This document shows, one piece after another, positions 29,223 through 46,580 of a DNA stretch of 64,000 nt. The notes beneath the pieces are model-generated. The model did no database searches. It had not been told where the DNA came from and saw only the letters and a program-made list of their open reading frames with translations. How positions within the stretch are numbered: position 1 is the stretch's first letter; every line of letters starts with the position of its first letter. The translations under genes and the position numbers were made by a program. Source of the DNA: Xanthocytophaga agilis (GTDB taxonomy: Bacteria > Bacteroidota > Bacteroidia > Cytophagales > 172606-1); assembly GCF_030068605.1 (NCBI RefSeq), contig NZ_JASJOU010000018.1, forward strand, positions 62,001 to 126,000. The letters run 5' to 3'.

Positions 29223-31556
29223 ATGCTATCCCCTATTCTCATTGTCGTTTTCTTATCTTTACTATTTACCTTTCTGTGTCTGATTACCTTTCTGTGTCTG
29301 ATTACCTTTCTGTGTCTGATTACCTTTCTGTGTCTGATTACCTTTCTGTGTCTGATTACCTTTCTGTGTCTGAAACGCAAATTTTTCCTTTTCACTATTC
29401 TGACTCGCCACTTTATATCCGGTTGTAGCTGTCTTAAAAGAACGCATTCAATAGAGCTGAAATGGATATTTTTGGCAGCACTGGGACTAATAAGTGGAAG
29501 CTTATATGGACAATTTATAGCAGGATTACCTAAAGACAGCCTGCAAAAAGTGTTGCGCACCACACCTGCAGATACAAACAAGGTATTGTTATATCTGACA
29601 CTGGGTCAGCAATACGAAGGCAATCAACCTGATTCTGCCATCTATTTTTATCGGCAGGCCCGAGACCTTAGTGAACGGATTGGCTATATGAGTGGTGTTG
29701 TCAAATACATCAGCAATTACACTGCTGTGCTCAATACCCAAGGTAAATTTGACGAATCACTCCGTCTGAATCTACAGGCTGTAGCCTTGTGTAAAAAACA
29801 TAGATTGACCCAACAGTTATGGAAATCCTATGCGAATGTAGGTAGTGTCTATCAGTATAAGGAGGATTACAGACAAGCAGCCGCTTATGAATTAAAAGCC
29901 CTGGCTCTTATTGAAAATCAACCGTTTGGACAAGCCATCAGTTTATTGCATAATAATCTGGCCGGACTTTACATTAATCTCAGAGAATATACAAAAGCGT
30001 TATCTCATGCATTGCAAGCTATGCAGGCAGCCGAAAAAGGAGAGGATTCCTATGCTATCGGCCAGGCATGTATCAATGCGGGCAATGCTTATCTGAAGAT
30101 GGAGCAACTATCCAAAGCCATTCATTATCAGACACGGGCTTATCAGACCGGACTAGCGCTGCAAGATCTGATCCTACAGGAAACCGCTCTGATTAATCTG
30201 GGACAGATTTATAATAGTCAGGGTCGGGCGGATTTATCTATGCAGGTATTCAAAAAAGCCTTACCATTGGCGGATGCAGTAGAAGATCTTTCAGCAAAAG
30301 CTTATATCCTGCAGGGGCTGGCCCGAAATTATTTTTTAAAAAAGCAACTTCTCTTCGCTGCTGCTACAGCGGACAGCGCTATTGCCCTGGCAAGCGAAAA
30401 CAATTTCAAAGAGATCCTTTCAGATCTATACCGTATGCGGGCTGAAATAGCACTTGCGCGTCGGGAAGATCACTTAGTAATACCATTACTTGACAAACAG
30501 GACTCGATCCGGCAGTTGATTCATAATGATCAGATAGTCAACAACATTCAGGAACTGGAAACCCAGTACCAGCTGCAAAAACAGCGCAGCAAGGCACTGC
30601 AGCAAAATTTGCTTCTGCAGAAAAAGACAACGCAGACCCGTCTGCAACGTAACTGGCTCATTGCCTCAGGAATCGTTTTGGCGCTGATGATACTTCTTCT
30701 TTTATCTGGCTATCGTTATTATATACAGCGACAGACTTTGTATCAATCCACCCTTGCTACGCTACAGGCTCAACAGGAAAATGTACGGTTGAAAGCATTG
30801 CTAGAAGGACAGGCACAGGAACGACAACGCATCAGTCAGGAGTTACACGATGAAATAGGTTCAGGCCTTACCTCTATGTTGTATTTAACACACTCCCTGC
30901 ACAGTTCCTACCATTCACCTGTAGTTGATTCTCCTGAGAGGGAGCAGCTCCGGAAAGTAAATCCGGAAAACGTATCATCAGATACAACCTTACAAAAGCT
31001 AAGCAGAACGGCCAGCGGACTCATTGAAAAAATGAATGAGGTAATCTGGTTGATCAATGATGAGTATAATACTTTGCCAGATCTACTGGCATACATTCGT
31101 GTTAACCTGGCCGAAACCCTGGAAAATGCAGGGCTTCCCTATCATTTTTTTCCGCCTCCATCTGTCCCAAAAGTTTCACTTGGACAATCCTTCCGACGCA
31201 ATGTATATCTGATTCTGAAAGAAGCCGTACATAATACTATCAAGCATGCGGATGCTTCACAGGTAGAGCTTCGTATTGAGTGGAAAGAACTCTCTATAGA
31301 ATATCAGCAACTACAACAAGGGTTTAGTCAAAGGGCACAAAGAGGAGAATTACTGTTTTATCTAAGGGATAATGGCAAGGGTATAGATGTAGAATCTAAG
31401 CGGGTCTTTGGCAATGGTCTGAAAAATATGCAGCGACGAGCCTCAGAGATTGGCGGTGAATTGTTATTTTTATCTGAGGGGGATAGTGTTGATTCAAATA
31501 GTAAAATGTCACAAGGCACTATCCTCTCTCTTCGTGTTTTTATTGAGCTGCAATAG
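29223..31556 (+). CDS. TPR-containing sensor histidine kinase (HisKA_3/NarX type) with repeat-encoded hydrophobic N terminus
   Basis: 777 residues if started at the ATG at 29223. No other in-frame ATG exists before the TPR part. Residues about 16-51 are six in-frame copies of a hydrophobic hexapeptide (LITFLC), encoded by an 18-bp tandem repeat. A second hydrophobic segment, ELKWIFLAALGLISGSLYGQ at about 77-96, looks like the original signal peptide. TPR helices fill about 110-430, ending in a coiled coil. A membrane helix lies at 477-500 (NWLIASGIVLALMILLLLSG). The H-box is ERQRISQELHDEIGSG with His542. HATPase motifs are RRNVYLILKEAVHNTIKHA, LRDNGKGID and GNGLKNMQRR. It senses through the periplasmic TPR part and phosphorylates the LuxR-type regulator encoded 344 bp downstream. 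Confidence 0.85.
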   Translation: MLSPILIVVFLSLLFTFLCLITFLCLITFLCLITFLCLITFLCLITFLCLKRKFFLFTILTRHFISGCSCLKRTHSIELKWIFLAALGLISGSLYGQFIAGLPKDSLQKVLRTTPADTNKVLLYLTLGQQYEGNQPDSAIYFYRQARDLSERIGYMSGVVKYISNYTAVLNTQGKFDESLRLNLQAVALCKKHRLTQQLWKSYANVGSVYQYKEDYRQAAAYELKALALIENQPFGQAISLLHNNLAGLYINLREYTKALSHALQAMQAAEKGEDSYAIGQACINAGNAYLKMEQLSKAIHYQTRAYQTGLALQDLILQETALINLGQIYNSQGRADLSMQVFKKALPLADAVEDLSAKAYILQGLARNYFLKKQLLFAAATADSAIALASENNFKEILSDLYRMRAEIALARREDHLVIPLLDKQDSIRQLIHNDQIVNNIQELETQYQLQKQRSKALQQNLLLQKKTTQTRLQRNWLIASGIVLALMILLLLSGYRYYIQRQTLYQSTLATLQAQQENVRLKALLEGQAQERQRISQELHDEIGSGLTSMLYLTHSLHSSYHSPVVDSPEREQLRKVNPENVSSDTTLQKLSRTASGLIEKMNEVIWLINDEYNTLPDLLAYIRVNLAETLENAGLPYHFFPPPSVPKVSLGQSFRRNVYLILKEAVHNTIKHADASQVELRIEWKELSIEYQQLQQGFSQRAQRGELLFYLRDNGKGIDVESKRVFGNGLKNMQRRASEIGGELLFLSEGDSVDSNSKMSQGTILSLRVFIELQ
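29267..29374 (+). repeat. 18-bp tandem repeat, six copies, inside the kinase N terminus
   Basis: The unit TACCTTTCTGTGTCTGAT is repeated six times without a mismatch except the last base of copy six. 18 bp is six codons, so changes in copy number keep the kinase frame. In that frame the repeat encodes a very hydrophobic peptide. Perfect copies suggest recent or ongoing expansion. Confidence 0.95.
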
Positions 31557-36921: not shown

Positions 36922-37488
36922 CTATTCCAAAGGCAAGGGAGGGCCAACTACTTTCATCTCATTTTTGGCAAACTCCTTGGTGATTTCATCTGCAGAGGGT
37001 TCATGATCGAGTGATGCCACATTGACAAAAAAGTTTTCCAGTTTGCCCGCCGGTTGCAGTACAACCAACATCTTCCCTTTATCCGAGACCTGAGTCCAGG
37101 CATGAGGCACTTGCCTGGGAAGGAAAATAGAATCCCCAACGGTAAGAGTGTATTTATCTTCACCCACCTTGAACAAATACGAGCCCTCAATCACATAAAA
37201 TATCTCATCCTTTGAAGGGTGGACATGCAAAGGAGTACCTCTGCCTTTGCTAAGGGAGGTTTGTTCAAAAATGGCCAGATCGCCATTGGTGTCACTACCC
37301 GATATTTTTACATCCAGCATATTCTGGTTTACTCCCTTTAACTTTAAATGTCCGTGTTTTCTTCCTTCACCGGCTGAAACTTTAAAGCCTTTTGTCACCC
37401 GATCAACTAGGTGTCCAATCCTTGCAAAGGATAGGGAGGGTAGGGTAATCAGACCAGATAAAGCTGAGATAAATGTAGTACGTTTCAT
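36922..37488 (-). CDS. Secreted cupin-domain protein
   Basis: About 188 residues from the ATG at 37488 (MKRTTFISALSGLITLPSLS), which gives a Tat-less signal-like N terminus ending near SFA. The long upstream frame (to 37641) is Cys-rich and repeats in sequence, so I do not use it. The cupin barrel has motif 1 as TPLHVHPSKDEIFYVIEG (two His and one Glu metal ligands) and motif 2 as GDSIFLPRQVPHAW (third His). It is probably a metal-binding periplasmic enzyme or a small-molecule binder. The gene is isolated. An 18-bp duplication (GTCAAACAGGAC type) lies at about 37511-37546, just upstream of its start. Confidence 0.8.
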   Translation of the reverse strand: MKRTTFISALSGLITLPSLSFARIGHLVDRVTKGFKVSAGEGRKHGHLKLKGVNQNMLDVKISGSDTNGDLAIFEQTSLSKGRGTPLHVHPSKDEIFYVIEGSYLFKVGEDKYTLTVGDSIFLPRQVPHAWTQVSDKGKMLVVLQPAGKLENFFVNVASLDHEPSADEITKEFAKNEMKVVGPPLPLE

Positions 37489-37510
37489 AGGTATACGGAT
37501 GAAGTGGATA

Positions 37511-37546
37511 GTCAAACAGGACATGGAAGTCAAACAGGACTGTGAC
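37511..37546. repeat. 18-bp tandem duplication upstream of the cupin gene
   Basis: Two adjacent copies of a unit built on AGTCAAACAGGACATGGA / AGTCAAACAGGACTGTGA lie 20-60 bp before the cupin start. They may overlap its promoter or leader. Confidence 0.7.
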
Positions 37547-37965
37547 ATTTTTATTTTGTATAAAACTAAACAGATGATCTGGCTTATTCTATAACCCGTT
37601 TTACAACTATGTTGCTCACATACCTGGAAAAGAACAGTCACCCTACCCCAAAAGGGTCAGATGACTTTCTGAAGCGAATTATCTGTTAGGTCTTTATTCT
37701 GTGGGCAACTAGCTTAAAACTAGCTTCTAGTCAGACAGGCACTATACATCCGGCTAAATACACTACGTCTAACTAGATATACTCTGGGATACTACATCTA
37801 ACCACCTATAGACATAGCTTTGCCACCTAAACAAAGTAAAAATGAGCCCCACTAATCAGAAGCTTCCAACTCAAGTGTACTTTTATCCTAGAAATGGAAC
37901 GTGGTTTTTGCACAACTCTGGCAGTTGAATAACTTTTTGAGAGAGGAATATCGGATCAGGATAGT

Positions 37966-38045
37966 TTTGATTACAGATGATTCAATCTAAACACTAAAAT
38001 TATCTCTATAAAAATGTATAGTTTGGAAGCATAATAAAACAGACA
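37966..38045 (+). repeat. 80-bp repeat, copy 1, in order A-B
   Basis: Segment A (37966-38020, 55 bp, starting TTTGATTACAGATGATTCAA) is followed directly by segment B (38021-38045, 25 bp, GTTTGGAAGCATAATAAAAC plus AGACA). The same two segments occur at 44324-44403 in the opposite order. Segment B here overlaps the T-run side of the terminator of the downstream-reading SDR gene, so this locus is probably the original one. Confidence 0.9.
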
Positions 38046-38081
38046 ACAGCTCTCTTAGCAGATAAAAAGCTGTTGTCTGTT
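38031..38081 (-). terminator. Rho-independent terminator of the SDR gene
   Basis: Perfect 14-bp arms AACAGACAACAGCT (38038-38051) and AGCTGTTGTCTGTT (38068-38081). Read on the minus strand, the stem is followed by TTTTATTATG. It lies 30 bp past the SDR stop. A 17-bp duplication (38072-38088 and 38089-38105) copies part of the stem right next to it. Confidence 0.85.
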
Positions 38082-38105
38082 CTGTTACGTTGTCTGTTCT
38101 GTTAC
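38072..38105. repeat. 17-bp tandem duplication next to the terminator
   Basis: GTTGTCTGTTCTGTTAC occurs twice in a row (38072-38088, 38089-38105) without mismatches. The first copy contains one arm of the terminator stem. Confidence 0.9.
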
Positions 38106-38111
38106 AAAGTG

Positions 38112-38861
38112 TTACGCATTTTGTCCACCATCAACAGTTAATGTCGAACCTGTAATAAAAGAGGCCTCTGGACTTGCCAGAAAAGCGACTGCCGCTGCAA
38201 TCTCTTCCACTGTTCCATACCGACCCAATGCCAGACCGGATTTTACGCTCTGGGCGAAATCTGTATTATCCGGATTCATATCGGTTGCTGTAGGCCCTGG
38301 CTCTACGGTATTGACCGTTATTCCTTTTTTACCCAGGTCCCAGGCCCATCCCCTGGTATAAGCGGCAACAGCTGCTTTGGTGGCTGCATAGTCAGCAAAC
38401 CCTGAAAATCCTCCAAGACGGGAAGCAAAGGTAGAACCAATGGAAATAATGCGTCCGCCTTCGCCGATATATCTGGAAGCGATACGGGTAGCAGCTGCCA
38501 CACCACTCAGGTTAACTGCCAGAATTTTTTCCAGTTCAGCAGGATCTGTTTCCGTTGTATCTACAGGACTATATACGGAGATACCGGCACTGTTAACCAA
38601 AATATCCAGTTGTCCATACGCTTTTATCGTTTCTTCCACTGCCAGCTCCAGGGATTTGGGATTACCACTATCGGCTTTGATAGCGAGCGCATGCCCTCCC
38701 TTTTTTTCTATTTCCGTAACCAGAGCTACGGCCTTCTCTTCGGCATTCAAATAGGTAAAGACCACACTGGCACCATCTGCAGCCAAACGTTTTACGATTG
38801 CAGCACCAATGCCACGACTTCCTCCTGTGACCAATGCTACTTTGTTAGTTAAAGGTGACAT
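38112..38861 (-). CDS. Short-chain dehydrogenase/reductase (FabG-like)
   Basis: 249 residues, standard classical SDR size. TGGSRGIG at 12-19, NSAG at 90-93 (NNAG variant), Ser in IISIGSTFAS and catalytic Tyr158/Lys162 (YAATK). VNTVEPGPTATDMN and the final SFITGSTLTVDGGQNA are typical of 3-oxoacyl-ACP reductase-like enzymes. Adenine-ribose preference would be NADP, judging from the Arg in the loop. It follows the F420H2-reductase-like gene by 64 bp on the same strand, with a Crp-type regulator upstream. Such SDR + oxidoreductase + regulator sets are frequent, but the true substrate is unknown. Confidence 0.92.
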   Translation of the reverse strand: MSPLTNKVALVTGGSRGIGAAIVKRLAADGASVVFTYLNAEEKAVALVTEIEKKGGHALAIKADSGNPKSLELAVEETIKAYGQLDILVNSAGISVYSPVDTTETDPAELEKILAVNLSGVAAATRIASRYIGEGGRIISIGSTFASRLGGFSGFADYAATKAAVAAYTRGWAWDLGKKGITVNTVEPGPTATDMNPDNTDFAQSVKSGLALGRYGTVEEIAAAVAFLASPEASFITGSTLTVDGGQNA

Positions 38862-38925
38862 ATATATTGATTAATTTGTTTTATAAGCTGATTTATAAAT
38901 TGAGAAAATGAAAAACTGTCTTCGA

Positions 38926-39522
38926 TTAGCTTAACTTGATTAAATTATGGACAGCTAATACTCCATTGGGAAACTGTTGTAGTTTACCTCCTTCATCCAG
39001 CCGCCCCAGATCAATACCTGCAAACCCCAACCGGTTTACTATTCCTGCAACAATGTCTTTGGCAGTCTGATCATTCCCTGAATAAAACAGCACTCTATGT
39101 CCTGCTGCCTGATTCGGATCTGCGGCTACCAGGTGAGGAGGTAAAGTATTAAAGGCCTTTACGACCCTTGCTCCGGGAAATAATTCGGCAACCACTTCAC
39201 TGGACGTTTTAACACCCAAATTAGCCAATTTAAATCCAGGTAAGATGGGATTGGTAGGATCTATGACAATACGACCCTGTAGACTGGGTATACTCAAGGC
39301 AACATCTCTGAGTTTCTGCCAGGGTACAGCCAGAAATACTACCTCTGCTGTAGCTGCCTGCTCTACACTGGTGCTACTGACATTGTCTCCTAACTGATGT
39401 GCCAATTCAGCAAGTGTTTCAGGACCGCGGCTATTGCTGATCATTACCTGATATCCGGCCTGTGCAACCTGTTGAGCGAACGCTTTTCCGATAGCTCCAG
39501 CTCCTATAATTCCTATTTTCAT
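38926..39522 (-). CDS. NADPH-dependent F420 reductase-like / NAD(P)-binding oxidoreductase
   Basis: About 198 residues from the ATG at 39522 (MKIGIIGAGAIGKAFAQQVA). The upstream extension of the frame to 39654 crosses the regulator's terminator hairpin and is rejected. The Rossmann motif GAGAIG is at 7-12, followed by ISNSRGPETL, the NADP 2'-phosphate-binding NSRGP loop. The rest matches the F420_oxidored fold: VVFLAVPWQKLRDV, VIDPTNP, GARVVKAFNTLPPH, VLFYSGND. Cytophagales do not make F420, so the family name should not be taken as the reaction; it is likely an NADPH-dependent reductase of another substrate. First gene of the pair with the SDR. Confidence 0.85.
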   Translation of the reverse strand: MKIGIIGAGAIGKAFAQQVAQAGYQVMISNSRGPETLAELAHQLGDNVSSTSVEQAATAEVVFLAVPWQKLRDVALSIPSLQGRIVIDPTNPILPGFKLANLGVKTSSEVVAELFPGARVVKAFNTLPPHLVAADPNQAAGHRVLFYSGNDQTAKDIVAGIVNRLGFAGIDLGRLDEGGKLQQFPNGVLAVHNLIKLS

Positions 39523-39642
39523 ATCTGTTGGGTTTAAAATCTCTGATTGATTAACAATCTGATTAACAATACAAAGTTGCACCCGATCAGGGTCTTCTCC
39601 ATTGACATTTACAGGAAAAATACCTTTAGCTATGCAAAGAAA

Positions 39643-39666
39643 AAGTCTTGACAAATGTCAAGACTT
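39643..39666 (-). terminator. Terminator of the Crp-type regulator
   Basis: Perfect arms AAGTCTTGACA (39643-39653) and TGTCAAGACTT (39656-39666) around a 2-base centre. On the minus strand a TTTTTC run follows. It lies 25 bp after the regulator stop and in front of the F420-reductase-like gene. Its symmetry would also suit a protein-binding site for that gene's promoter. Confidence 0.7.
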
Positions 39667-39690
39667 CAGAATCCAGAGTGGAAAAACGGG

Positions 39691-40269
39691 CTATTTTTTA
39701 ACGGCCAGATGTCTGATCCGGCTTAGTGTTTCCGGAGAAACTCCCAGGTAGGAGGCGATCATATGCAGTGGAACCCGATTGAAGATATCAGGATACTTTT
39801 CGATAAAGTTGAGATATTTCTCTTCAGAGGTATAACTAATCGCGGCGTGGATTCTCTCCTGAGAGGCAATATAGCTGCGATGAATAAGATTGGTTATCAG
39901 CTGATCAAAAGCAGGAATCTGATCGCGTAAGGCTTCAAAGTCTTGCCTGGGAAACAAAAGTAATACTGAATCTTCGAGTGCATCAATATTGTATCGGGAA
40001 GGGGTACCATTCAGTAAGCTTTCTCTGTCTCCCGCCCACCAGTTTTCTATTAAAAATTTCAGAATATGTTCGTTGTCATGTGCATCGACACGGTAAGTTC
40101 GCAGACATCCTTTGCATATAAAGGCATAGTATCTCCATACATCACCTTCCTGCAACAAATATTGTCGCTTTCTGAGCTTTTTAATAATCCCTTTTGAACG
40201 TATCAGTTCAAACTCTTCCTCGGTTATCCGAATTTTATCAGTCAGATAAGTATAAAAGATTTCAAACAT
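39691..40269 (-). CDS. Crp/Fnr-family transcriptional regulator
   Basis: 192 residues. The cyclic-nucleotide-like beta-roll spans about 25-120 (YLLQEGDVWRYYAFICKGCL, then ILKFLIENWWAGDRESLLNG). The short C-terminal helix-turn-helix is VPLHMIASYLGVSPETLSRIR at about 165-185. No cysteine cluster as in Fnr and no strict cAMP-binding Arg-Ser pair are seen, as is usual in this Bacteroidota subgroup. Reading on the minus strand, it precedes the two oxidoreductase genes with a terminator between, so it probably controls them from a separate transcript. Paralogue of the regulator at 47780-48343. Confidence 0.9.
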   Translation of the reverse strand: MFEIFYTYLTDKIRITEEEFELIRSKGIIKKLRKRQYLLQEGDVWRYYAFICKGCLRTYRVDAHDNEHILKFLIENWWAGDRESLLNGTPSRYNIDALEDSVLLLFPRQDFEALRDQIPAFDQLITNLIHRSYIASQERIHAAISYTSEEKYLNFIEKYPDIFNRVPLHMIASYLGVSPETLSRIRHLAVKK

Positions 40270-41041
40270 GAGGGCTTGTTTTAGAATAAAAGAAAATAGA
40301 CTTCAAGATAGTGATTTTTCCCATTTGAAGCGTATTTCACTTATCTATCCTGAATCATAAGCCTATACCATAAACATATACCATAAGCCTATAGCTCAAC
40401 CAGACAGAACAAAGCTTTTTATATTGACAAAACAGCTAATTTGTGGAGTAAGGGTAGTACTTTTAAACAATTTAATTTATTTATCCTTTGTTGTAGCTAC
40501 AGCCAACAGTTATTCTGGGAATGATGGTTTTTCAGATCAAATCAGACTATAAGCAATGGCACTATTGTTTTTAAATGCAGTAAGACCATCTGCAGCGCTT
40601 GGACTATCTCCAATCCAAAAACAACAGGTTGCTTCTTTCCGGAAAGAAGTAATTCCATTACTTTCCGTTTTTCAGTTTTCCGGACTGACATAGAAGCTGT
40701 TTGGTTATTTAGTAAGAGGTAGAATTTTACGTAAAAAACGAATATAAAAGGGTATTATCTGAGTTACTAACTCTATACTAGATTCTCTGCCTCTACTATC
40801 TATGCTTAACATTGCAACTATACAGTCACTATTTTTCGAAGAGATTTTAATTGGGGATGGTATTTTTTGGTTCTCATTTCAAAAATTACTCTTTTTTGGA
40901 AATCCTTTCCTTGTAGTAAACAACTTACTATGCAATCAAAGCTTTACTAGAAATACATCAAAGGTATTTTAATTCCAAAAATTGATTTATATCATTACTA
41001 TTAAATTCGATCTATCAACTGCAACAGATAATTCGCGCAAC
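40270..41041. other. Spacer with a 13-bp duplication and a weak coding trace
   Basis: CCTATACCATAAA and CATATACCATAAG (40362-40387) form an imperfect tandem repeat. Between 40540 and 40690 frames are open on both strands; the minus-strand translation CCFWIGDSPSAADGLTAFKN NSAIAYSLI looks like a gene end, but no family can be named. No other structure is seen. Confidence 0.4.
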
Positions 41042-42178
41042 ATGGTCAAGCACAGTTTCAGCAAAATCCTTTGGGCAGTAGGCTGGGGAGTGATAAGCAT
41101 ACTTACACTTGCCCAGACAGGATGTGAAAAGAAAGAAAACCTCAATCCTCAGGACCGTACTTACTATATGGGTTTTACCCCTCTTCCGTACGCTTTAACG
41201 CCAGCTGCCATAGATTACACTTATACCCAACTCGAACAAAGTGCCGATATAGTCTGTCATCACTTCGACGATGGTGTACCGTGGGTGGAGGCACTGAAAG
41301 ACACAGCTTTTCATCCAGGCTTACAACAAGATTGGGCTTATCGTAAATCCCGGACATTACCTTCCCAAAAGGTATTTCTGGCATTTACCCCCATCCGTTT
41401 TGACCGGGTTGCCCTGGCTTCTTACCGGGCCGCTACACCCAATATGGATATGCCCTCCCCCTGGAATACCTATTCTTTCAATCATCCGGATGTAAAGAAA
41501 GCGTACCTAACCTATTGCAAACGAGGTATCGATTTTTTCAATCCTCATTATTTTCTGATGGGCATTGAGGTGAACCTGCTTTTGAAGCTCAATCCTTCCC
41601 TTTGGCAGGATTACCTGGAGCTGCATACTTATGTTTATCAGCAACTAAAGAAAGCCTATCCAGATTTGCCTGTTGCTGTATCAGTTAGTGGCATTGATTT
41701 ACTGGAAGGCTATACTGATGCAGACCACGCTCAACAAACGGAAGGTTTGACGCAAATTCTGCAACAGACCGATTTTCTGGGATTTTCACTTTACTCCTAC
41801 CAGACCCGCTATCTAACAGGCGATTTGCCTACAGATATGTTTAGCCAGTTATTTTCGCTTACCAGTAAACCCATTGCCATTACAGAAACGGGATATCCGG
41901 CTCAGAGATTCTCGGTATTTACTAATTCAATTACATTTGAAGGCACAGAGGACAAACAGGATCGTTATATCAGTCAATTGCTTACAGCATCAAATCATGA
42001 AAATATGTTGTTTGTGATCAACTTTGTGCTGCGTGACTATGACCAACTCTGGCAGGCCTGGGGCAGCAAAGACGATATTACAATTCTATGGCGTGATACT
42101 GGCTTAATCGATGAGAATGCCAGTCCACGAAAGGGATTCCAAACCTGGAAATCCTACCTGAAAATACCAAAAAAATAA
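41042..42178 (+). CDS. Glycosidase-like (TIM-barrel) lipoprotein
   Basis: About 378 residues from the ATG at 41042 (MVKHSFSKILWAVGWGVISI), with a lipobox ending AQTGC and a mature part starting EKKENLNP. The upstream start at 40982 adds 20 residues in front of the signal and is less likely. The body looks like a clan GH-A TIM barrel of the GH53/arabinogalactanase kind: YMGFTPLPYALTPAAID at the start, FFNPHYFLMGIEVNLLLKLN carrying the likely acid/base Glu, and SKPIAITETGYPAQRF carrying the likely nucleophile Glu. It is probably exported to the outer membrane and acts on plant or microbial glycans. The assignment is by motif only. Confidence 0.6.
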   Translation: MVKHSFSKILWAVGWGVISILTLAQTGCEKKENLNPQDRTYYMGFTPLPYALTPAAIDYTYTQLEQSADIVCHHFDDGVPWVEALKDTAFHPGLQQDWAYRKSRTLPSQKVFLAFTPIRFDRVALASYRAATPNMDMPSPWNTYSFNHPDVKKAYLTYCKRGIDFFNPHYFLMGIEVNLLLKLNPSLWQDYLELHTYVYQQLKKAYPDLPVAVSVSGIDLLEGYTDADHAQQTEGLTQILQQTDFLGFSLYSYQTRYLTGDLPTDMFSQLFSLTSKPIAITETGYPAQRFSVFTNSITFEGTEDKQDRYISQLLTASNHENMLFVINFVLRDYDQLWQAWGSKDDITILWRDTGLIDENASPRKGFQTWKSYLKIPKK

Positions 42179-43310
42179 GCAGGTTTTAAAGTCTGCATAG
42201 TAGAATTTACCAATAAAAAATTTTAATCCATTTTTTACAGAACCGGTTTACGTATAGATAGCCTACAAATATAATCGGCAGGCTTACCAATGAATAATAA
42301 TACACCGCTTCCTTGAGCCTGATGTTACTGATTAAAACTGGCAAAGCTTTAGTTGTGAAGGTTTCACAAAAGTCTTTATTTGCATTCAACGTAATGTATA
42401 CAGAAGAATAGATTCAGCAAGTCCAATAGTTGCAGCACTTATTTCTCACAGGCTTGAAATCCTTAGTTATGACTGTACGTCTTATACGAATTAACGAAGA
42501 GATTAAACAAGTTATGCAATTGTTGCAGGAACTGGATGCAGTTATAGAAAGCCATGTGAGGTAGTATGTCTCAAAAAAATAAATTGATCCTTGTTGTAAA
42601 TTTCCCACAGGTGCCACTACTCCTGGTATAGCGCAATTCCTTGATAATAGATTCGAAACTAAAGTCTATCAGTCCGCTTTAGATTCTGGGACCTACTAAA
42701 AGAGCTAAATAAAAGGATCAAAAATTGATCAAGAATGATAACAATTAAATACTGGATGAAGAATGCATGGGAACTACTCACTATTGCCTTACAAAATTGT
42801 GCAGTAACAGATAGACCTTTTTCTAACGAACTTCCCTGATTTTCTGGCTGGCTATGTTTTCAGCTTGTTTATTCACGGAGTAGTTTTCCGATTAATTATC
42901 CGGATTAATTATCCGGATCAGGTTTTACCAGCATTGCTCCAATCAATTGAAGTGTCCAGCGCCTACATCGCTGAAACGAAGATCAGTCCTATTCTAACCT
43001 TTGTATTTCAATGCCGGAAAGTAGATATATCCAAGGGCTTGGCGCATCAGAAAGAACAGTGTTAAAGGCCATCTTACCAATTCTGCCATCTTAGGCAGCA
43101 CCACTATCGGCAATGTTGACGTGATTTTGCAAAACCGCATTGGCCTGGAAGCTAAGAAAGACGTATGAAAAAAATGCTTGAGATATACGATTTGGTTGGG
43201 AAAGATACAAAACAACATACTATCACAAACGCACTATCACAATGGGCTCCATTAATAGTTTGGTATAAACCTTAATTTGGGCTTTGTTTAAAATTGTAAG
43301 AAAATGAGTA
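42179..43310. other. 1.1-kb spacer with scattered coding remnants and a 13-bp duplication
   Basis: A short plus-strand frame at 42469-42564 reads MTVRLIRINEEIKQVMQLLQ ELDAVIESHVR and looks helical and real, but is only 31 codons. Between 42930 and 43230 pieces of protein-like sequence appear in shifting frames (SAYIAETKISPIL, GHLTNSAILGSTTIGNVDV). I take these as remains of a lost gene. CCGATTAATTAT / CCGGATTAATTAT is repeated at about 42888-42916. Confidence 0.4.
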
Positions 43311-44114
43311 TCAGCTTATAGGATTGCAAATATCACATTGTAGTTTGAGGTATTTGGCAGGACTAAGGTTTATATAATAGTTGAAATCATTTATCAACTG
43401 GCTTTGGTCATAGTAACCACATTTGTCTATAATCTCAAACCAATCGTTCTTTGTTGCCTTTGTCGCAATACTTTGTATCATTTCAATCGCTTTTAGAAAA
43501 CGTTGGTATCGGGTTAGTTCTTTGGCTGAATACCCTAAATATTTTTTATGGTTTAGCTGAATAGAGCGTTCGCTCAGGTTTTCATTGTCAGCAACTTTTT
43601 TTATCGGGTTATAGGCAGAATGCTTTAGATGTACTAGCTTTTCAACTACTACATTTCTCTCTTTCAAGTAAGGTTTACAAAATGATAAAATATAATTAAC
43701 CTGATCTACTGGATCTTTGAATTGAGCCATTCCATCTCTAAGTATTGTAAAGCAGTTTTCTTCCAAAAGAGAGTCCGGATCCAAAGGTAAATTTTCGGCA
43801 ATAGTAGAAGATCCGAAAAAACGGTAAAATGCATCATCTTTAAAGTTGGCAACCAATAGTTGGGTACTGGGCAGAAGAGAATAGGTAAAGGCCTTTTTAA
43901 TCGGACCTAAAACAATGCATTTGTTAACCTGGATCTGTTCTTCTTCTGTGTAAAGAAAGGCACTGGCTCCAAAACTAAAAATCAGAATGGTTTGATAGGA
44001 AGGCAGAAGCGTTTTCGTTATAGAATGTTCAGATCTATTTTCCGCAAAATAGAAATGGGAGAAAACCTCACTAAACTCAGTAGAAACTGGTATTCTATAC
44101 TGCAAATACTCCAT
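43311..44114 (-). CDS. AraC-family transcriptional regulator with N-terminal DUF6597-like domain
   Basis: 267 residues. The N-terminal half (VFSHFYFAENRSEHSITKTL, QTILIFSFGASAFLY) is the beta-barrel sensor common in Bacteroidota AraC proteins. The C-terminal half has the two helix-turn-helix motifs: NPIKKVADNENLSERSIQLN, HKKYLGYSAKELTRYQRFLK, and CGYYDQSQLINDFNYYINLS followed by PAKYLK. The start lies 107 bp from the left end of the IS3 element, which reads in the same direction. No obvious target gene is adjacent. Confidence 0.85.
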   Translation of the reverse strand: MEYLQYRIPVSTEFSEVFSHFYFAENRSEHSITKTLLPSYQTILIFSFGASAFLYTEEEQIQVNKCIVLGPIKKAFTYSLLPSTQLLVANFKDDAFYRFFGSSTIAENLPLDPDSLLEENCFTILRDGMAQFKDPVDQVNYILSFCKPYLKERNVVVEKLVHLKHSAYNPIKKVADNENLSERSIQLNHKKYLGYSAKELTRYQRFLKAIEMIQSIATKATKNDWFEIIDKCGYYDQSQLINDFNYYINLSPAKYLKLQCDICNPIS

Positions 44115-44323
44115 AGTGCTCTCTCTATATTCTCTTTATTTTTTTAACTAAAATCTTCTCCTATTCACTTTAAGCTACTACTTTATAAAAAACATCATTT
44201 TCCTCATACTACCTTTGAGATGGTCCTAAAAACCGGGACACACGATTTGCCAGTAAATGAGATTAATTTGGTAAAGTTATTCAATTCTGCTGGACTTTTA
44301 TAGCCCAAAGCGGAATACCTCCT

Positions 44324-44403
44324 GTTTGGAAGCATAATAAAACAGACATTTGATTACAGATGATTCAATCTAAACACTAAAATTATCTCTATAAAAATGT
44401 ATA
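44324..44403 (+). repeat. 80-bp repeat, copy 2, in permuted order B-A, inserted in the transposase
   Basis: Segment B (44324-44348) followed by segment A (44349-44403), the reverse order of the copy at 37966-38045. Both segments match exactly over all 80 bases. GTTT occurs at both boundaries (44324-44327 and 44404-44407). Removing the 80 bp restores the conserved transposase end YYNRN-RRYSALGYKSPAEL, so it was inserted into the IS after the IS was in place. Confidence 0.9.
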
Positions 44404-44543
44404 GTTTCGATTATAATAAATTTCAACGTATTCAAAACATTCCGTCTTAGCATCTTCTGCTGATAAAAAAGTCCCATTTTCCACCAATTCTGCTTTAACC
44501 AGCTCGGCTATGATAGCGAGAGAAAAATGATTCGGCAATCTGA

Positions 44544-44580
44544 AACGTGAGTATCATCCAGCAACGTGAGTATCATCGGA
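44544..44580. repeat. 19-bp tandem duplication inside the transposase gene
   Basis: AACGTGAGTATCATCC and its neighbours are repeated with a 19-bp period (44544-44562, 44563-44580). It shifts the reading frame just before the conserved AESFFSR part. Confidence 0.85.
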
Positions 44581-45707
44581 TTCAGCATTATCGTATACTT
44601 GATCAGCTCTAGACATACTTTGATTGCATTTCCATTTTTTGATCAACGCTCTCAGCTTTTTGGAGACATATTGACCACCTCGATCTGAATGCAGGATTAA
44701 TCCAGGTGTTGGTTTCCTGGTCTGTAATCCATTTTGTAAAGCTTCAATAACTAATTCTTCCTCCATGGTTTTACCTACTTGCCAGCCCACTACATAGCGA
44801 GAAAACAAATCAATCCAAGTAGTCAAATAAGCAAATCCGCCATTCGCTAAAGGCAAGTATGTGATGTCTGATACCAGCCCATGCGGTAGTCATTAATCTG
44901 GTTTAGTTTCTCTGCTCTCGCTTGCTCCAAAAGCAAGTTTGGTGAATTCCGTTTTCCATGTTTGGATTGAGTGGTTTTAGGTACAAAGCTTTTTGGCTGA
45001 ATGGCCTGTAACTCTTTCTCTTTCAATATTTTTCGGATCTGATGTCTACCTATTATTCTACCTTGAGCTACCAATTCTGCTTGTAAACGACGAGTTCCAT
45101 AGCGTCTTTTATGTTCCCAAAACAAAGCTTCAATCTGTTGATTCAGTTCCTGTTTTTGTTCTGAAACCGAATAAGTTTCTCCTTTCAGATACCGGTAAAA
45201 TCCACTACGACTTACTTTCAAAACCTGGCACAAACGTTCTAGCACCCTAGTCTGAATTCAAACTCTTTACTCCATAATTCTACCCATTCATATTTTTCTT
45301 TTAGGGAGATTTGGAAAAAATAGCCACTACTTTTTAACCTGCTACGTGAATGAAGCGTATCTGCTTCATGGCATCGGCTCTAAGATATCTCGCTCTGTTT
45401 CTACCTCTCGTAGTTGCTCTTGCAACTGTTCCACTTTTTGCAAAAGCTCGCCAACTGAAACTGTTTTTTCTCTATATTGGAGGAGTTTGATTGAGCAAAC
45501 TGTTCATTCTTCCAGCGATAAATCACCGAAACAGATACGCTTCGTTTTCACTAATGCCTAGTTGTTGGCTAATTTTGCAAGCACTTTGTCCATTGAGAAA
45601 CATCTTTGAAGCCCATATGCGAACGGATGAGATTTACTTCGCTTTTGAAACCGGCACTATATCATGCCGATGGCGTGACAAGTTTTGTGTCCCAATTTTT
45701 AGGACCA

Positions 45708-45939
45708 CCTCCTTTTTACTAAATCAATAGTTATTTCAGTTGTAGCCTTACCTATTTTCTTTTTAAAAGTTAGGCTTTTATACTTCCCAAACCAGTCGAA
45801 GTATAATTCCATATCCTGCTTCACCTCATTAAGATCAATATTAAGATTTAGCAATTTTCCATCCTAACTCAATACTTTCCAGTTAACCGGAAAGGAGCAA
45901 CTGCATTACATTTTCTTTTTCATCCTGAAGTTTTGACAT
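45708..45939 (-). pseudogene. 5' remnant of a gene cut by the IS3 element
   Basis: From the ATG at 45939 the minus strand reads MSKLQDEKENVMQLLLSG, an early stop, then (after frame changes) SIELGWKIAKS, LNIDLNEVKQDMELYFDWFG, KYKSLTFKKKIGKATTEITI DLVKK up to the IS end. The opening ENVxQLLxSGxxxxIxLGxxIAxSL is the same plan as the start of the leucine-rich-repeat protein at 61736 (EENLYRLVYSGQPETVALGL). So it is probably the start of a paralogous gene. Nothing matching lies on the other side of the IS. Confidence 0.5.
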
Positions 45940-46035
45940 AGCTATTTACTCAACTTTTACTATTACTTCAATATAGATGAAACTGTAACAACTTTCCTAT
46001 GAATACACTAACAAAAGTAAGCAGTAATGTACCAC

Positions 46036-46443
46036 TTAAGCTTTTTGTAAAGCTTCAGAAACGGCATAACTATCTTCCAACAGCCGATACCAAACTATGT
46101 GACGATCTTTTATAGATAGCCGAATACAAAATAAGGAATTAACTATTTGATCCGTTGCAAGCATTCGGGTTGAAAACTCACCTGTAATAACAGCCTGATT
46201 ATTTTCTACCAATAGTAAATCCATCTGTACTGTAAGAGGCTCAGTCTGAGACCACAGAAGTTCATAGAAATTTTTCACATCCTGTTGGCTATGTCTTCTT
46301 CCTGTCCAGTGAGCCAGGGTTTCATTACCTGGTATGTACCAGTCTACTTTTTCTGCAAAAAGAAGGGTTAAGTTATCCAGATCTCTATTGGTTAGATGTG
46401 TCAGGAAATCCTGTACTAGCTGTTGGGTATTTTCAGTTGGCAT
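46036..46443 (-). CDS. SnoaL/NTF2-like protein
   Basis: 135 residues with the cone-shaped NTF2 fold pattern: VQDFLTHLTNRDLDNLTLLF at the start, AEKVDWYIPGNETLAHWTGR, then strands LTVQMDLLLVENNQAVITGE and FCIRLSIKDRHIVWYRLLED. The family includes ketosteroid isomerases, polyketide cyclases, dehydratases and proteins with no catalytic role. No catalytic residues can be assigned here. Single gene; the TetR pseudogene lies upstream and may once have controlled it. Confidence 0.8.
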   Translation of the reverse strand: MPTENTQQLVQDFLTHLTNRDLDNLTLLFAEKVDWYIPGNETLAHWTGRRHSQQDVKNFYELLWSQTEPLTVQMDLLLVENNQAVITGEFSTRMLATDQIVNSLFCIRLSIKDRHIVWYRLLEDSYAVSEALQKA

Positions 46444-46580
46444 ATGAAGTTTGATTATCTGTGTTAGTCTATAACAAAGCTAGATAATCTCTGCTGGAGA
46501 ATATTGATATTTTACGACAAAAAAGTGCAGCGTCCTTTACATAACCTAAGTTTCTTTAGTGTGCAGTCTGACAGACAATC

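Follow-up and report, generated by a model that had tools for sequence, protein, structure and literature searches.

An 80-bp sequence inserted in circularly permuted order into a degenerate IS3-type element of Xanthocytophaga agilis: a probable one-off templated insertion

Two copies of one 80-bp sequence, circularly permuted with respect to each other, were found in the window, that is, the whole 64,000-nt stretch of Xanthocytophaga agilis DNA analyzed here (G000:C18:62001-126000). At 37966-38045 the sequence reads A-B, with segments of 55 and 25 bp, and at 44324-44403 it reads B-A, on the same strand and with 80 of 80 bases identical. The second copy is probably (we would put it at about 0.6) a one-off templated insertion, made with an 80-bp back-jump on the donor, and not an element in its own right. 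Exact string comparison confirmed the initial annotation, which had reported an 80-bp sequence present twice in permuted order with every base conserved. Segment A occurs in the window at 37966 and 44349 alone, and segment B at 38021 and 44324 alone. The longest run common to donor and recipient, including the right-hand GTTT, is 59 bp (37966-38024 = 44349-44407), a length far beyond chance. The inserted bases exactly reproduce DNA found elsewhere in the same genome, as in templated insertion of the template-switch or MMBIR-like kind, and are also an exact circular permutation of their donor, as in duplication through a circular intermediate. When the assembly (9,768,099 bp in 66 contigs) was searched with the 80 bp (E <= 0.001, best 40 of 53 candidates), three matches were obtained, all at the two known places (Table 1).

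Table 1. Features of the donor and recipient loci, in window coordinates
Feature	Position	Strand	Evidence
Source segment A, 55 bp	37966..38020	+	Exact match to 44349-44403
Source segment B, 25 bp; starts with the opening-joint GTTT and ends 14 nt into the left arm of the hairpin	38021..38045	+	Exact match to 44324-44348; inverted-repeat arms
Hairpin terminator, arms 38032-38051 and 38068-38087, 90% complementary	38032..38087	-	Inverted repeat; RNA fold; terminator-like site 38083-38036 on the minus strand
Short-chain dehydrogenase (SDR) gene, 249 aa, upstream of the terminator	38112..38861	-	PF13561, E 1.3e-59
CTTT, left target-site duplication, identical to 45712-45715	44213..44216		Sequence identity
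Degenerate IS3-type element with terminal inverted repeats, 1415 bp minus the insert	44217..45711	-	Inverted-repeat matches; homology to G001:C13; rve and HTH_21; intact homologues
Recipient copy of B, GTTT first	44324..44348	+	Exact match
Recipient copy of A	44349..44403	+	Exact match
Second GTTT, left as the joint once the insert is removed	44404..44407		Empty-site alignment
Insertion of about 16-18 bp in the IS relic, without a template found	44499..44516		Alignment to G001:C13
19-bp insertion, near-tandem copy of the next 15 bp	44544..44562		Repeat and alignment
Insertion of about 18 bp, resembling inverted IS sequence 45528-45543 (15/16)	45349..45367		Alignment and template search

The RNA fold of the minus strand at 38000-38130, which spans the terminator hairpin, gave a z-score of -4.56. 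This fold, together with the empty IS sites described below, supports the earlier proposal that the first copy overlaps a native terminator and is the source. An exact 17-bp tandem copy, GTTGTCTGTTCTGTTAC, adjoins the hairpin at 38072-38105, and pairing of the hairpin's left arm is also possible with the second unit of this tandem (88%). The source carries the direct repeat ATAGTTT at 37961 and 38018 as well, which was rejected as the origin of the joint because a 57-bp ring formed from it would be without B.

Members of the IS3 family are marked by rve and HTH_21 domains, terminal inverted repeats, and a target duplication of 3-4 bp. All of these are present in the recipient, the transposase of which contains PF00665 (rve) and PF13276 (HTH_21), and which is bounded by inverted repeats and by CTTT at both sides. 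In the named genome collection, its protein has one close match, 82% identical, in Xanthocytophaga flavus YF14B1; the second of the two loci matches at 28%. With the 80 bp omitted, the alignment to a copy on contig C13 of G001, a genome of the same genus, is continuous across the site, with GTTT present (CTGTTTCAATTAT). Also continuous are the alignment to contig C8 of the same genome as the window (78%) and, in one frame, the translated match to intact IS3 proteins (RRYSALGYKSP). The copy on G001 contig C28 is uninterrupted at the site, and eight further G001 copies (contigs 12, 14, 15, 20, 25, 26, 29, and 34), which end with their contigs about 13-18 bases past it, have no insert within the sequence present. 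Those on contigs 15 and 26 have AATT where the window IS has GTTT.

Because the relatives have empty sites, IS3 proteins match through the site, and the source stands at the SDR terminator, we read the copy at 44324 as derived, with the terminator locus as donor and the IS as recipient. The direction of transfer, a single insertion, and a joint at GTTT had all been claimed beforehand, and the uninterrupted related copies bear them out. It had also been claimed that removal of the insert restores the coding sequence exactly and leaves GTTT; this holds for the local frame and for the GTTT, but the transposase is otherwise broken by frameshifts, stops, and further short insertions.

At the opening joint (A/GTTT), donor and recipient share the 4-bp identity GTTT, which serves both entry and exit, and an identity of at least 4 bp was reached in 1.9% of 200,000 random trials. 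The inner, ring-closure joint (CAGACA/TTTGATT), where B meets A at 44348/44349, has 0 bp of microhomology, with no bases common to the source ends, and lies at a different point from the opening joint. Each of the source ends shows some likeness to the IS site, with a score of 7. Homology-guided pairing beyond GTTT was nevertheless rejected, since 872 of 9468 low-GC GTTT sites score equally well. With entry and exit at one GTTT, an exact permutation follows from any single circuit of the donor, and this dual use removes most of the apparent cassette precision.

In the reading that we prefer, a break or a stalled fork in the dead IS copy would have exposed a 3' end at ...CCTCCTGTTT, which would have annealed by its GTTT to the terminator locus, at a distance of 6.3 kb. 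Polymerase would then have run along B as far as a stop within the hairpin's left arm, a position that fits a stalled polymerase. Synthesis would have restarted 80 bp upstream at TTTGATT, through a back-jump or over a circle or tandem dimer, and A would have been copied as far as the same GTTT before the return to the IS. A back-jump, a transient circle, and a tandem dimer give the same product, and the sequence alone cannot separate them.

Further short insertions are present in the same element. The window IS and its relative on G001 contig C13 are both pseudogenes, and their comparison, the 80 bp aside, shows eight insertions of 16-35 bp (13 + 5 and 17 + 1 merged). Five of the eight, which are not fully independent (the inverted match of G001 2014 is to another insertion, 1483, or to its apparent template at 1950), have an exact match within the element or 1 kb, three of them direct or tandem and two inverted. 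The match length required was at least 12 bp, a threshold chosen after a first look at the matches; among control segments drawn from these elements, 2.9% (n = 2744) and 3.6% (n = 2448) also matched at this length. At 13 bp or more, the figures were three of the eight insertions against 0.8% and 2.3% of the control segments. No local template was found for the remaining three, one of which is the 35-bp insertion, and a wider template search for the insertions at 44499 and G001 1742 gave nothing above 11 bases. The insertion at 45349-45367 has a 16-base exact match in an IS fragment on contig C32. The G001 contig C28 copy is without the 18-bp tandem and a 25-bp stretch but has the 17-bp insertion in common with the others; the insertion differences are therefore of different age.

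Insertions copied from nearby sequence would be the expected leavings of template switching and break repair, and as such they point to a repair or replication process. The apparent habit of copying templates is shown for this IS only. In the relics at window 44217-45711 and L018 1352-2822, several insertions within the narrow size range of 16-19 bp are present, along with one of 35 bp. The G001 copy has an 18-mer like GCCCATGCGGTAGTCATT in three slightly different versions, one of them inverted.

Short tandem repeats are in excess in the genome. With units of 11-19 bp, 88 were counted in 1,367,156 bases, coding and non-coding repeats pooled, against 3 in the control, a single Markov-resampled sequence. 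A genome-wide peak of tandem size at 18 bp, which IS insertions of 16-19 bp had suggested, was not seen, the highest count being at 15. Within the window, an 18-bp unit, TTACCTTTCTGTGTCTGA, stands in six exact copies at 29266-29373.

Other permuted pairs were also searched for (exact seed of 16, partner of at least 12, gaps of up to 8, up to 6 copies per seed). A first scan of 1,367,156 bases gave seven rows: this pair twice, four in one repeat cluster on contig C8, and one in a repeat cluster on contig C15. The second, which covered 2,242,835 bases (about 23% of the genome) in both orientations, gave six: this pair twice, a 318-bp tandem, one C8 repeat, and one inverted pair on C15 twice. The two scans differ in their distance limits and in how repeated matches are followed, so some rows of the first are absent from the second. 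The rows other than this pair are thus the 318-bp partial tandem or belong to repeat clusters, and a sole permuted pair in 2.24 Mb that is neither tandem nor in a repeat cluster fits a rare accident. Among 36 gaps of at least 8 bp in 81 kb aligned with orthologous G001 DNA, few resemble their neighbors, as judged by eye. Non-coding dispersed pairs of at least 18 bp numbered 242 in 1.37 Mb, many of them apparently pieces of mobile elements.

A search for a Ku homologue (PF02735) found none in the one genome examined, and the control search matched in 1 of 14 genomes. Because Ku was not found, Ku-dependent end joining is not an obvious route, and if ends were joined, the route was probably another. 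A reverse-transcribed RNA circle was set aside. There was one reverse transcriptase match, at G000:C23:101589-102197 (L155; PF00078, best PADLOC match RT_XIII), and nothing connects it with the locus studied here.

Taken together, the exact A-B/B-A relation, the presence in two places in the assembly, the empty sites, the five insertions that resemble nearby sequence, and the tandem excess favor a templated insertion. The blunt inner joint is unusual for template switching and speaks against it, as do the three insertions without a local template and the lack of significance of the resemblance beyond GTTT. The whole case rests on one event in one assembly.

Similar processes are known in other organisms. 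In short-patch double illegitimate recombination of Acinetobacter baylyi, short pieces of the cell's own genome are inserted via microhomology; the present case is alike in that a short own-genome piece was inserted in a bacterium, and we know of no permuted insertion from that process. Quasipalindrome mutations of Escherichia coli correct a single imperfect inverted repeat locally, whereas the template here is 6.3 kb away. Hairpin-forming repeats are nonetheless common to these template-switch mutations, as outlined in PMC7202029, and to our locus, where two neighboring insertions resemble inverted copies. In yeast, short pieces of local or distant DNA are inserted at breaks, commonly two from one locus, and microhomology-mediated template switching has been proposed, according to the summary of that work (PMC11724301). 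Our insert is likewise short DNA copied in as two pieces of one locus, but the two-piece events given as common there are inverted, and here both pieces are direct and in swapped order (PMC11724301).

The alternative that fares best, although clearly less probable than the templated insertion, is a minicircle. A piece of the terminator locus, 80 nt long and single- or double-stranded, would have been closed end to end at the blunt CAGACA/TTTGATT joint and captured at the GTTT of the IS, which would account in few steps both for that joint and for the coincidence of entry and exit. Small double-stranded circles are, however, hard to close, we know of no bacterial process that makes circles of 80 bp, and no further insertion of the segment was found in the assembly or in 97 other genomes. 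The initial annotation had taken an 80-bp circle, or a tandem copy, as the simplest model; either would explain the order of the segments, but the cassette-like integration at GTTT that went with this model was not supported. The same signature is borne by human circularly permuted duplications of about 20, 23, and 130 kb, reported in a paper that also cites cases in cattle and yeast and whose authors expect undetected permuted cases below 500 bp (PMC7188851). As in those duplications through circular intermediates (eccDNA), a segment was reinserted elsewhere in permuted order, like a ring cut at another point; unlike them (about 20-130 kb; PMC7188851), ours is a bacterial case of 80 bp for which a ring is one reading among several. 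To the statement that no element of this size is known to do this, the human cases (PMC7188851) give an answer in kind, at another size and outside bacteria. Among the titles and abstracts screened in the open-access literature, no bacterial circularly permuted insertion of this kind came up. Were a minicircle the true intermediate, circle-mediated duplication, known from large eukaryotic segments, would occur in bacteria at the scale of tens of bases.

A tandem dimer at the source is unlikely. The donor would once have read A-B-A-B, one GTTT-to-GTTT period would have been copied to the IS, and the source would later have collapsed to one unit. The exact permutation then becomes trivial, and short tandem repeats are indeed in excess; a partial tandem of the A-B-A form can be read from the match of C8:264330 to C8:264648. 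This last locus, G000:C8:264330-264768, is an apparent partial tandem duplication with a period of 318 bp and a second copy of 121 bp. Against the dimer, two extra events are needed, there is no remnant at the source, and a check for tandem arrays, covering units of 33-120 bp, turned up no near-exact case in 1.37 Mb.

An assembly artefact is very improbable. The assembly is a draft in 66 contigs, and the nearest named relative has a SPAdes-style contig title. However, an artefact would require the assembler to have made up each of the insert's three joints, assemblers do not join sequences on overlaps as short as 0-4 bp, and no other full-length copy of the IS with which it might be confused was found in the assembly (best 40 of 50 candidates).

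Elements that excise and insert at one recombination site have the same ends in every copy, and integron-type gene cassettes have a foldable attC site and open at the closure joint. Here, the segment has no notable DNA fold (z = +0.64; 148 of 200 shuffles fold as well) and was opened away from its closure joint, and in place of further copies with the same ends there are two places in its own genome. No Rfam family reached its gathering score within window 37000-46500. A search for further copies of A and B gave no third place in the assembly, and relatives of the donor stretch were found neither in 97 other genomes, where there were two matches of 30-31 bp alone (best 8 or fewer candidates per genome), nor in phages and plasmids; an exact 39-base pattern had no match in IMG/VR. 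The cassette-like integration first proposed, in which a recombinase would have placed an 80-bp mobile element at 4-bp identity, has in its favor the precision of the insertion and the GTTT, but with differing joints, no fold, no third copy, and no relatives it is not supported and is the least probable reading of all.

As a templated insertion, the 80-bp copy would be a rare but intelligible accident of repair or replication, a small-scale bacterial variant of an already known type of duplication. It would provide a clean, base-exact record of such an event, with the donor known, from a bacterium whose genome yielded no Ku homologue. Being a single case, it chiefly documents a mutational process; if permuted copies proved recurrent, bacteria would pass short DNA through a looped intermediate.
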